From assembly GCA_002731985.1 (NCBI GenBank), contig PCCT01000014.1:5233-23493 (forward strand): DNA of 18,261 bases, written 5' to 3'. This stretch comes from Nitrospinota bacterium (GTDB lineage Bacteria; Nitrospinota; Nitrospinia; Nitrospinales; VA-1). The stretch's first letter is position 1; each line of letters starts with the position of its first letter. The notes below the pieces were generated by a model. It ran no database searches. It saw only the letters and a program-made list of their open reading frames with translations, and had not been told where the DNA came from. A program made the translations under genes and the position numbers. This document shows positions 14,546 through 18,261 of the stretch, piece by piece.

Positions 14546-15511
14546 TCAATTTGAACCAGCAAGTTTCTCTTTGATTCCCACTTCGTAAAACTGTTTGAGA
14601 AACGATTTGACCAATCGAAACGGATTGAAAGAGATGTCCACGGGATATTTGGCGAGTTTGAAATCGGATACCTTCAGCGAGTCCAAATCCGTTTCGCCGA
14701 CACATTCTATGTGTTGTAAATCCCATTGCCCGTACTGTCTGATACGGGCCGCTTCAAGCGCATACACTTTGTCGACAGGTACATCGACGATTTCGGCCAG
14801 CACACGGTCCAGCGCCGTCATATCCGTTCCGGCGGCGAGCAGGCCGAGCGGGTAGGGCGTGCCGTTGATCGGGCCGTTGCCCTGCATGGCGGAGATGCCA
14901 TCCACAATTGTTAAAGACGGAGCAACATGCTTCGCGATGTCGATCAGCATCTTGCCGAAAGTGACCTTATCGTTTTTGACCAGGCAATGCAGAACCGGTT
15001 TGCGTTTTCCAATGACCAGACCGAACAGGTTCTTGATCGCCAACGTCAGCGTCATCTGGCAGTGCGCTTTAAACTTTGGCAGATTGATGGTGCTGTCATA
15101 TTCGCGGATACTGCCCGCGATTTTGAGATGTGCGATATTTTCTTCAGTGACGAGAGGTACTGGGTCGGTTAATGGTACGATGCGAACGCCATATCGCTTT
15201 CCCAGATCACCGTAACCCGCACTGTTGGCCACTGCCTTAAGACTACCGATAGCCGGGCTATCGCTGAGATCGACCTGGCCCACACCAAGATCTTTGAGCA
15301 CACGACACACAGCGTCGATTACGGCAGGGTGTGTCGTGACACAACGTTCCGGAGCAAATCCGCGTAAAAGATTGGGCTTCAGTAGAACCTTGTCACCCGA
15401 TGAAAATAGTGGACCCCGACTGCTGAATAGACCCACGCTTTCACGAACAAAACCTTCAATATGCCCCGGATGGTAAGCGTCAAATTTGCGGACCAAAATT
15501 TTCGGGTTCAC
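14546..15511 (-). CDS. DUF362 domain-containing protein
   Basis: 321 residues from GTG at 15511, chosen because GGAGGT (15522-15517) lies 5 nt upstream; a TTG at 15517 overlaps that ribosome site and is less likely. The DUF362 pattern (PF04015) is clear: KVLLKPNLL at about 41-49, CVTTHPAVIDAVCRVLKDLG at about 57-76, DSPAIGS near 84, TINLPKFKAHCQMTLTLAIKNLFGLV at about 141-166 and LTIVDGISAMQGNGPINGT at about 198-216. No 4Fe-4S ferredoxin part follows, although some members have one. Family members are predicted iron-sulfur or cofactor-related enzymes, without settled function. Probably cytoplasmic and transcribed with the small gene downstream. Confidence 0.87.
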   Translation of the reverse strand: MNPKILVRKFDAYHPGHIEGFVRESVGLFSSRGPLFSSGDKVLLKPNLLRGFAPERCVTTHPAVIDAVCRVLKDLGVGQVDLSDSPAIGSLKAVANSAGYGDLGKRYGVRIVPLTDPVPLVTEENIAHLKIAGSIREYDSTINLPKFKAHCQMTLTLAIKNLFGLVIGKRKPVLHCLVKNDKVTFGKMLIDIAKHVAPSLTIVDGISAMQGNGPINGTPYPLGLLAAGTDMTALDRVLAEIVDVPVDKVYALEAARIRQYGQWDLQHIECVGETDLDSLKVSDFKLAKYPVDISFNPFRLVKSFLKQFYEVGIKEKLAGSN

Positions 15512-15535
15512 AGACAACCTCCATTCTATCTAGCT

Positions 15536-15664: not shown

Positions 15665-18261
15665 TCAGGGGCCAGTTTGCGGGTAGAGGGTTCGGTAGAT
15701 GCTGTAGTTGCGGAGGACTTTTTTAACGTATTTTCTGGTTTCGGGGTAGGGGATGGATTCTATGAACACATCGGGGTCGTCGAGGTGGCTGAAACGTTTC
15801 AGCCATTTTTTCAGCATATGAGGTCCGGCGTTGTATGAAATAAGAATATGTGTTCCATTCTTATCAAATTTCCGGTTGAGCTGGCTGATGTACTGGATTC
15901 CCAATTGGATATTCGTTTCAGGATCAAACAGGATGTCGGTGTTGTAAGGTCCGTTCATTTTGGAGTTGGCGTGCAGTAGTCGTCCGGTCTCGGGCATGAT
16001 CTGCATGAGTCCGATTGCTCCGGCCCGTGACTGCACCTGGGCATCGAACAGGCTTTCCTGACGGATGAGACCTTTAACGAAGTAGGGGTCGACTCCATGA
16101 CTTTTCGCGCTGTCGCGGATGGTTTCAGCATATGCCAGTGGATAAAAGTTGCGCCAGAAGTTCTCGGTGAGTTCCTTTTCCTTAATTTTAGTTTTGAAGT
16201 CTTTATAAAGTTGCATGATGCGCACTGCATCAGGATAAGCGTGCGCGTTATTGAAAAGCGTGGCGAGCCACATCACCCCCGAAAGGTTTTTGCGTATGGA
16301 GTTTTCCAGTTTTTTAATTTCATAACTTGCGTCTTCATAGAACCCGGTCGCAGACAGTTCCACACCTCGCGAATAATGAAACCGTGCATTGGCGGAGAGA
16401 CTGGGTTTCTGGAGTGATATTTCCCGATGGTTGTTTTGTCTCGAAGCCGAAGACTTGTCGTTTCTCTTTTTCCCGGCGCGGATTCCGTAGTAGGTATAAG
16501 GCAGTCGATTGTTAACGTCTTTATAAAGTTGTTGCGCCAGGTCGACACGCCCGAGTTTTTCAGCCGATTTCGCGGCCCAGAACATACTGCTTTCGATGAA
16601 GAGTCCGGACGGGTACTGGCGGGCGCTGTCCATAAAGTAGTCGAGAGCTTTCTGGGAATCTCCTTTTGTGTAATGGAGCCAGCCCAGTTGCCACGCGGCA
16701 CGTTCGGCGAATTCGTCATTCCCGAATTGTTCGACCAAGGTCGTGTAATGTTTGGTTGCCTGGGAGTACCGTCTTTTTTCCTCATGCATTTTGCCGATGA
16801 AGAAACGTGTCTGGCTGGCGAGAGATGATTGCGGCGACTTGTCGATGGCTTTCTGAAAATATTTTAGTCCGTCACGATAATACCCTGTGTTCCAGAAGTT
16901 GCGTCCGATGGTGAACAGCGCTTCCTGAACCCGGGCGTGTTCCGGATAGTGTTTGAGAAATTTTCTGAGAGCGGCGTTGGCGAGGTTTCTTTTGCGAAGC
17001 CCTTTTTGCGCGTTAGCCAAGTAAAAATAGAATCTCCCGGGAAGCGGAGATTTGTTTTTCAGTAGTTCGTTAACTTCAGTTATCGCCCGCTGGTATTGAA
17101 CCTCCTTGAGGAGTGCGCTGATGCGTTGTCCGTGTTCATCAATGGTAAGAGCTTTGATGGTAACGTCGGCCTGTTTGCCCAGCTTATTTATCTCTGCTTT
17201 GGCTTGTTGTGTCAATTGATGCGTAGGGTAAGCGATATGGAGCAGACGATAGCGGTCGTAGGCTTTATTCCTTTGTTTCAACTGCTGGTAAAGTTGGCCC
17301 TGCTGGAAAATGATTTCAGGCAAATGAGAGCGTGACGGGGAAGTTTTTGAAAATCCCGATAGACGTTGTTCCGTTTCAGCAAGTACCCGGAGAGCATCTT
17401 CTTTTTTAGGCTCTTGCTCCAGGATTTTTGCCCGCAGGAGCTGGTGCTGGGCATAGAGCAACGTATTTGGAAAATTTTTCTGTAAAATATTAATTTGTTT
17501 CAGCGCGTCCGCGCCCTTTCCTGAATCCACCAATACTCTGGCCAGGTGATAGCGGATGTAGTCCTCTATTTCCGGGTAGGATTTGATAGCAGACTGAAAC
17601 GCCTTTATCGCTTCTTGAGGCTTGCTGATATGCGTCAGACTGTGCGCTTCTAAATATAAAGAACGTTTTCCCTCTGTTGATTCCGGGGCCGATGCGTGAA
17701 CAGAACGAAACAAAAGCGCCGCCTGATGGTAATCCCCTTTTTGGTATGTTAAAAACGCTTCTGAGTAGGGGTCTTTATCGTTGGCGACTGAGGGTAGCGG
17801 ATTAGTAAAAGTCAGGCACAATGTCAGGAGAAAGACTGCTACTGTTTGTGGAAGCAGTGAAAGAATTTTATCGCGCAGACTGGCAGGGTTGTCCAAAGAA
17901 TTGGCATGAATGGTTTTAGCGTCACGGGATTTTTTAAACCATGTGATCTGGCGTTTCGCGTAGCGTCGGGTGTCCCGTTTTATCAGGTCCACCGTTTGTT
18001 CCATTGAGAGCTTGTCATCCAGGAAGTCTACAATTTGTGAGTAGCCGATGCTTTGGAAAGGTTTTAGAGATTTTGAGAATCCGCGACCTAGAATATTCTT
18101 AACTTCATCGATCCATCCCCGTTGCATCATGTGATCCACCCGTAGGTTGATGTTGTCATAAAGCTCTTTCCGGTCGCGCTCTATTATAAAAGTATGGATG
18201 GGAAACTCATATTCAGGTGCTGGATTAGTTTTAACGAATTCGGATAAAGCTTTGCCCGTTT
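15665..18261 (-). CDS. MiaA (C-terminal part) fused in frame to Slt-type lytic transglycosylase (5' end off the right edge)
   Basis: One open frame of 864 visible codons. Residues 1-110 are the C-terminal part of tRNA dimethylallyltransferase MiaA: TGKALSEF at the edge, ERDRKELYDNINLRVDHMM at about 27-45, QSIGYSQIVDFL at about 69-80 and KRDTRRYAKRQITWFKK at about 94-110. No stop follows. After about 20 linker residues comes a hydrophobic segment (about 138-152) ending PSVAND, a good signal peptidase site after Ala159. The rest is a periplasmic Slt70-like enzyme: many TPR-like helices (160-690), then the SLT domain with GLIRQES (catalytic Glu735), AGAIGLMQIMPETG, ISYNAGP and IPYPETRKYVKKVL, which cleaves peptidoglycan to anhydromuropeptides. 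Read separately, slt could only start at TTG 17896, which lacks a ribosome site. It is either a true fusion cleaved at the signal site or a lost miaA stop codon. Confidence 0.85.
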   Translation of the reverse strand, partial: TGKALSEFVKTNPAPEYEFPIHTFIIERDRKELYDNINLRVDHMMQRGWIDEVKNILGRGFSKSLKPFQSIGYSQIVDFLDDKLSMEQTVDLIKRDTRRYAKRQITWFKKSRDAKTIHANSLDNPASLRDKILSLLPQTVAVFLLTLCLTFTNPLPSVANDKDPYSEAFLTYQKGDYHQAALLFRSVHASAPESTEGKRSLYLEAHSLTHISKPQEAIKAFQSAIKSYPEIEDYIRYHLARVLVDSGKGADALKQINILQKNFPNTLLYAQHQLLRAKILEQEPKKEDALRVLAETEQRLSGFSKTSPSRSHLPEIIFQQGQLYQQLKQRNKAYDRYRLLHIAYPTHQLTQQAKAEINKLGKQADVTIKALTIDEHGQRISALLKEVQYQRAITEVNELLKNKSPLPGRFYFYLANAQKGLRKRNLANAALRKFLKHYPEHARVQEALFTIGRNFWNTGYYRDGLKYFQKAIDKSPQSSLASQTRFFIGKMHEEKRRYSQATKHYTTLVEQFGNDEFAERAAWQLGWLHYTKGDSQKALDYFMDSARQYPSGLFIESSMFWAAKSAEKLGRVDLAQQLYKDVNNRLPYTYYGIRAGKKRNDKSSASRQNNHREISLQKPSLSANARFHYSRGVELSATGFYEDASYEIKKLENSIRKNLSGVMWLATLFNNAHAYPDAVRIMQLYKDFKTKIKEKELTENFWRNFYPLAYAETIRDSAKSHGVDPYFVKGLIRQESLFDAQVQSRAGAIGLMQIMPETGRLLHANSKMNGPYNTDILFDPETNIQLGIQYISQLNRKFDKNGTHILISYNAGPHMLKKWLKRFSHLDDPDVFIESIPYPETRKYVKKVLRNYSIYRTLYPQTGP

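Follow-up and report, generated by a model that had tools for sequence, protein, structure and literature searches.

A MiaA-Slt reading frame with an internal signal peptide-like segment, conserved across an order of Nitrospinota

FbcH of Bradyrhizobium joins cytochrome b and cytochrome c1 in one precursor, and signal peptidase separates the two by cleaving at an internal signal. By analogy, FbcH appears to be the nearest precedent for the fusion described here; both would have one bacterial reading frame, an internal signal peptide, and two expected mature proteins, an expectation that for the fusion comes from the motif. However, the products of FbcH share one membrane complex, whereas MiaA and Slt belong to different compartments and have no known common task. 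Each half of the fusion also resembles a described family. MiaA (PF01715, TIGR00174) is similar in equivalog score (3/3 full-length relatives) and in the fold of E. coli MiaA; in the fusion, in contrast, no stop follows the MiaA tail, a predicted signal peptide and Slt come next, and the P-loop glycine is lost in part of the group. Similarly, the Slt70-type soluble lytic transglycosylases (PF01464) share with the fusion a TPR superhelix and an SLT domain with RQES and GLMQ motifs, and the fold matches Slt70 and P. aeruginosa Slt. In contrast, the fused Slt has neither a start codon nor a signal peptide of its own, and its predicted export signal is internal and uses the MiaA tail. In an open full-text search, judged from titles and the beginnings of abstracts, no paper describing a MiaA-Slt fusion was found.

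The window, that is, the whole stretch of DNA analyzed, comprises 18,261 nt of Nitrospinota bacterium GCA_002731985.1 (contig PCCT01000014.1; G000:C14:5233-23493). Its right edge is the end of the contig (23493) in a genome that is 65% complete, and the 5′ part of its miaA is missing because the contig ends there. On the minus strand, a frame at 15665-18259 runs for 864 residues without a stop from the right edge of the window to the stop codon at 15665-15667, and it represents the C-terminal 864 of about 1033 residues, as judged from the closest relative, G006, whose full-length fused protein has 1033 residues and is 85% identical over the window's part. Residues 1-110 (17930-18259, minus strand), up to KRQITWFKK, match PF01715 (IPPT) with 111.5 bits (cut-off 23.6), while residues 714-827 (15779-16120, minus strand) match PF01464 (SLT) with 96 bits (cut-off 21.3), and matches to TPR families lie between the two domains. 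TIGR00174 gives 95.3 bits on the window's MiaA piece, which is truncated by the contig end, against a cut-off of 148.65, and this cut-off was reached by all three full-length relatives tried (292.7 bits for L006, the locus of G006, 294.9, and 307.2). Thus, MiaA and Slt lie in one uninterrupted frame, as the original prediction stated; the full miaA that it expected upstream exists in G006, but the window's own copy is cut short. Downstream of the window's fusion lies a gene for a DUF362 protein (14546-15517), and a protein that looks similar by eye follows the fusion in several relatives. Upstream of the fusion, a methyltransferase gene (PF05175; for example, L022:222-1040:+) shares 47 bases with the beginning of miaA in 6/9 listed loci; by eye it resembles a tRNA methyltransferase, and no NCBIfam model matched it at E 1e-20.

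The frame was searched in 60 relatives, then in 64 genomes of the order, and then in 77 of the phylum. The junction is read through without a stop in 59/59 loci that cover it, representing 58 of the 64 order genomes (G029 has two), and it is open in relatives down to 34% identity. Of these loci, 52 were scored for the signal and 7 were read separately, and all 59 were recounted. At least 700 residues follow TWFxx in 53 loci, and the other 6 reach contig ends. The window, lying at a contig edge of a genome that is 65% complete, might in principle owe its open frame to a sequencing or assembly error that removed the miaA stop. The same frame in 58 genomes, three of them single-contig (G008, G009, and G037), refutes this explanation, since a one-off slip would not recur in 59 loci, and we regard its probability as negligible; chance is excluded likewise. 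The junction thus recurs in related genomes as had been anticipated, and a miaA stop stands there in none of the 59 loci. The six order genomes without a readable junction are G015, in which a contig edge falls inside MiaA, and G023, G026, G045, G060, and G066, which have no MiaA match at the search threshold. Additionally, two contigs each carry part of the fused gene in G011 and G016, the break lying away from the junction, and the MiaA part of G035 is interrupted upstream of the junction, where it falls into two frames.

PF01715 was searched in the 60 relatives. Of the 55 that belong to the order, 52 had a match and 3 (G023, G026, and G045) had none, and every MiaA matched there was part of the fused gene; a search of all 64 order genomes with the fused protein likewise revealed no separate MiaA. 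A second PF01715 match in the window's own genome, at 19 bits, is below the cut-off and was left uncounted. G029 carries two uninterrupted fused genes, G029:C12 (L052) and G029:C39 (L012). G023, G026, and G045 have MiaB above the cut-off yet no MiaA match, which may reflect incomplete assembly or loss. Among the best 120 of 248 homologous protein matches of fusion length, 39 of which were aligned as A2, some source names are Nitrospinae, Nitrospinaceae, Nitrospinales, or Nitrospina; the product names given there are MiaA or tRNA dimethylallyltransferase, although the precomputed Pfam lists include SLT. Collectively, the sequences show one fused frame with signal-peptide anatomy, two intact domains, and no separate MiaA found.

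Among 13 genomes of the class outside the order, a MiaA match at the search threshold was found in 10, and none of these is fused. In six of the ten (G057, G058, G071, G072, G073, and G075), slt shares its contig and strand with the unfused miaA. One base is common to the stop of miaA and the start of slt in G057 (TAATG); in G058, a gap of about 770 bases or more separates the two genes; and in G071, G072, G073, and G075, the slt frame is already open upstream of the miaA stop, and a signal-like stretch follows that stop. In a tree of 69 MiaA rows, of which 49 are fused and 20 separate, the two states require one change (SH-aLRT 99), in a quick search with several long branches and with the window's row 40% filled. 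On this tree, the fusion is of single origin, and repeated fusion was rejected, as one change suffices. The fusion would accordingly have arisen once, in an ancestor in which slt adjoined miaA, and a small indel at a TAATG-type overlap, as present in one sister genome, would have been enough to join the two genes. Outside the Nitrospinota, the fusion was found in 0 of 80 MiaA loci, sampled from 584 and with no Nitrospinota record among the matches listed; all of these end 15-54 residues after KRQxxWFxx.

The stretch between the two halves is present in the window as residues 111-139 (17843-17929, minus strand), and it proved to be an ordinary C-terminal tail of MiaA rather than the linker that the original prediction had supposed. 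The tails of the ten unfused MiaA of the class are similar in length (28-38 residues after WFxx) and align with the stretch from WFxx to the hydrophobic core in the 17 fused rows shown, including the last helix, which reads LRDKIL in fused rows and AEKIF in two unfused ones. Therefore, the fusion holds a complete MiaA and gained no extra linker. In the AlphaFold2 model of a close relative, P0001, the tail contains a strand at 283-287 and a helix at 294-304. From the alignment, the last helix of MiaA occupies the place of the n-region of a putative signal peptide.

The hydrophobic core of this internal signal, VAVFLLTLCLTF, covers residues 140-151 (17807-17842, minus strand), and the most hydrophobic 15-residue segment of the protein overlaps it (2.12; next best, 0.79). 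The c-region (17783-17806, minus strand) ends in SVA, and the motif SVA|N predicts a signal peptidase I site at 159|160, between 17783 and 17782. Core and site therefore stand where they had been placed originally. The Slt part has no N-terminal signal peptide; instead, its predicted signal lies inside the fused protein, some 310-330 residues after the N-terminus. In 52/52 scored loci, a 12-residue hydrophobic core begins 26-32 residues after TWFxx, with a mean Kyte-Doolittle value of 1.86-3.41. A site with A at −1 and a small residue at −3 is found 13-23 residues past the start of the core in 45/52 loci, whereas the mean for other places in the same Slt parts is 0.31; under a looser rule (A, G, or S at −1), a site is found in 52/52 loci versus 0.54 elsewhere in the same Slt parts. 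The control is weak, as the place of the site was picked after the core and the counts, coming from related loci, are not independent draws. Of the seven loci without A at −1, four belong to the window's genus and have G instead.

These observations suggest that the internal signal directs Slt out of the cytosol and that signal peptidase I probably sets it free, which would leave a hydrophobic membrane tail on MiaA. The signal-like core and site thus support the polyprotein proposed in the original prediction, of which cleavage and the membrane tail are the conjectural parts. Alternatively, the fusion might be exported uncut as a type II bifunctional membrane protein, with MiaA in the cytosol and Slt in the periplasm across one transmembrane segment. 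The single hydrophobic segment, the positive residues on its MiaA side, and the seven loci lacking A at −1 are consistent with this arrangement. However, the core is short, and small residues follow it at −3 and −1 in every scored locus under the loose rule; the segment also has a pLDDT below 50 in the model, although this is compatible with an anchor. We therefore consider an uncut product rather unlikely. Selection on the short tail and core is noisy, being evident in some pairs rather than in every pair. Between the window and L006, dN/dS is 0.043 for MiaA, 0.081 for the tail, 0.46 for the core and c-region, and 0.11 and 0.068 for Slt, while close pairs give values near or above 1 (L010/L054 tail, 1.03; L020/L026 core, 1.19; L008/L009 core, 0.92); the partial Slt of L010/L054 gives 0.41.

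A further explanation is that an internal start in the miaA tail yields additional Slt, or even most of it, with the fused product as a by-product. Consistent with such a start, an in-frame ATG, GTG, or TTG occurs after TWFxx and ahead of the core in 40/52 order loci, and in many an ATG immediately follows TWFxx. The residue at that place is M or V in many fused loci; among 80 MiaA from other groups, E or D predominates there and M occurs just once, so M is a feature of this class and not of MiaA at large. In contrast, the corresponding residue is V, M, or T in 10/10 unfused MiaA of the class, and this feature therefore predates the fusion. Moreover, 12/52 loci have no candidate codon, including 7/8 of the window's genus. 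The window itself has an in-frame TTG at residue 122 (17894-17896, minus strand), at the position first given; no Shine-Dalgarno core precedes it, as the original prediction noted, and it is not conserved as a start, being TCG in L006. A Shine-Dalgarno core precedes 3/87 in-frame start codons in the first 30 positions of the tail, no more than the background of 80/1560 codon positions, as compared with 16/49 of miaA's own starts (one of them, L063, from a locus without the junction). Finally, without a stop, translation of MiaA would always continue into Slt. A separate internal start as the main route was thus rejected, there being no conserved start and a background rate of Shine-Dalgarno cores, and an internal start of any weight appears very improbable.

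One fused polypeptide with an exported Slt is the preferred reading, and the features of the Slt part are in line with it. The TPR superhelix extends over about residues 160-640 (16340-17782, minus strand), as indicated by TPR families, by helices from residue 333 of P0001, and by Slt structures among the fold matches. In the catalytic domain, which carries the RQES and GAIGLMQ motifs, RQES of the window's Slt aligns with RQES of a solved Slt, the Glu of which we take to be the catalytic residue. Q-E-S precedes GLMQ in 52 of the 53 loci in which the Slt part is complete, and its columns are invariant in the alignments A1 and A2; in L014, the GLMQ spelling is absent. The best NCBIfam transglycosylase model, NF047373, is below its cut-off on the fused protein. 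The P0001 model, built from the 39-row alignment, has a mean pLDDT of 86 and a pTM of 0.61, with two confident parts, MiaA before 310 and Slt from about 333, and pLDDT below 50 at 310-312, 316-330, and 773-784. Foldseek matched it to E. coli MiaA (TM 0.85 by target), Slt70 (0.57), and also P. aeruginosa Slt; the many unrelated TPR proteins among the fold matches were disregarded.

The MiaA part differs within the group at its P-loop. The glycine of GxTxxGK[ST] is G in 41/55 readable junction loci and K, N, or E in 14/55 (L006-L012, L014, L044, L047-L049, L052, and L054); the P-loop is unreadable in 4/59 junction loci, including the window. L063, whose junction is off its contig, also has K, and some of the best 120 of 248 fusion-length protein matches have R. 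In the window's genus, K or N replaces the glycine in 7/7 loci read. In contrast, the glycine is kept in all 90 unfused MiaA, of which 10 belong to the class and 80 to other groups; on the MiaA tree it changes five times, and every row without G is fused. These sequences suggest that MiaA may be altered in such loci, which lowers confidence in an unchanged MiaA chemistry but not in MiaA ancestry.

Taken further, the five changes and their absence from unfused MiaA might mean that MiaA is now mainly a cytosolic head of Slt that is losing its tRNA role where the P-loop is altered. However, purifying selection on MiaA is strong, with dN/dS of 0.03-0.20 over ten pairs; D34, S35, and Q37 do not vary across the 17 rows of A1 or the 39 rows of A2; and L006, a K variant, still scores about twice the TIGR00174 cut-off, so that we consider a lost role improbable. 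MiaB is above the cut-off in 50/60 relatives, and the pathway, in which MiaA would transfer dimethylallyl to A37 of tRNA, therefore appears, on this indirect sign, to be in use. MiaA is more plausibly altered than dead, although unproven, because it is otherwise constrained and MiaB is present.

We therefore consider it likely that the locus encodes one polypeptide consisting of a cytosolic MiaA, an internal Sec signal, and an exported Slt, with a probable signal peptidase I cut. In this mechanism, the complete MiaA would fold in the cytosol while leaving the ribosome. The emerging signal, with the last helix of MiaA (LRDKIL) as its charged n-region, would then bring the chain to the Sec translocon, through which the TPR-rich lytic transglycosylase would be threaded out. 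Signal peptidase I would probably cut after the A-x-A-like site, so that MiaA would stay at the inner membrane by a short hydrophobic tail while Slt would be free in the periplasm, the two in a 1:1 ratio. More tentatively, the fusion could be an order-wide polyprotein that sets one ratio for tRNA modification and wall turnover and holds MiaA at the translocon, and the P-loop changes could be adaptations of a tethered enzyme.

In this order, a core enzyme of translation is stably joined to a wall enzyme that is predicted to be exported, and the fused MiaA is the only one found across the order genomes examined. In practical terms, a database entry labeled MiaA may at once be the Slt of the cell. 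The fusion would also illustrate how the last helix of a protein can become the n-region of a signal peptide, and it bears on the export of proteins placed behind a large folded N-terminal domain. A coupling of tRNA modification and wall turnover also becomes testable.
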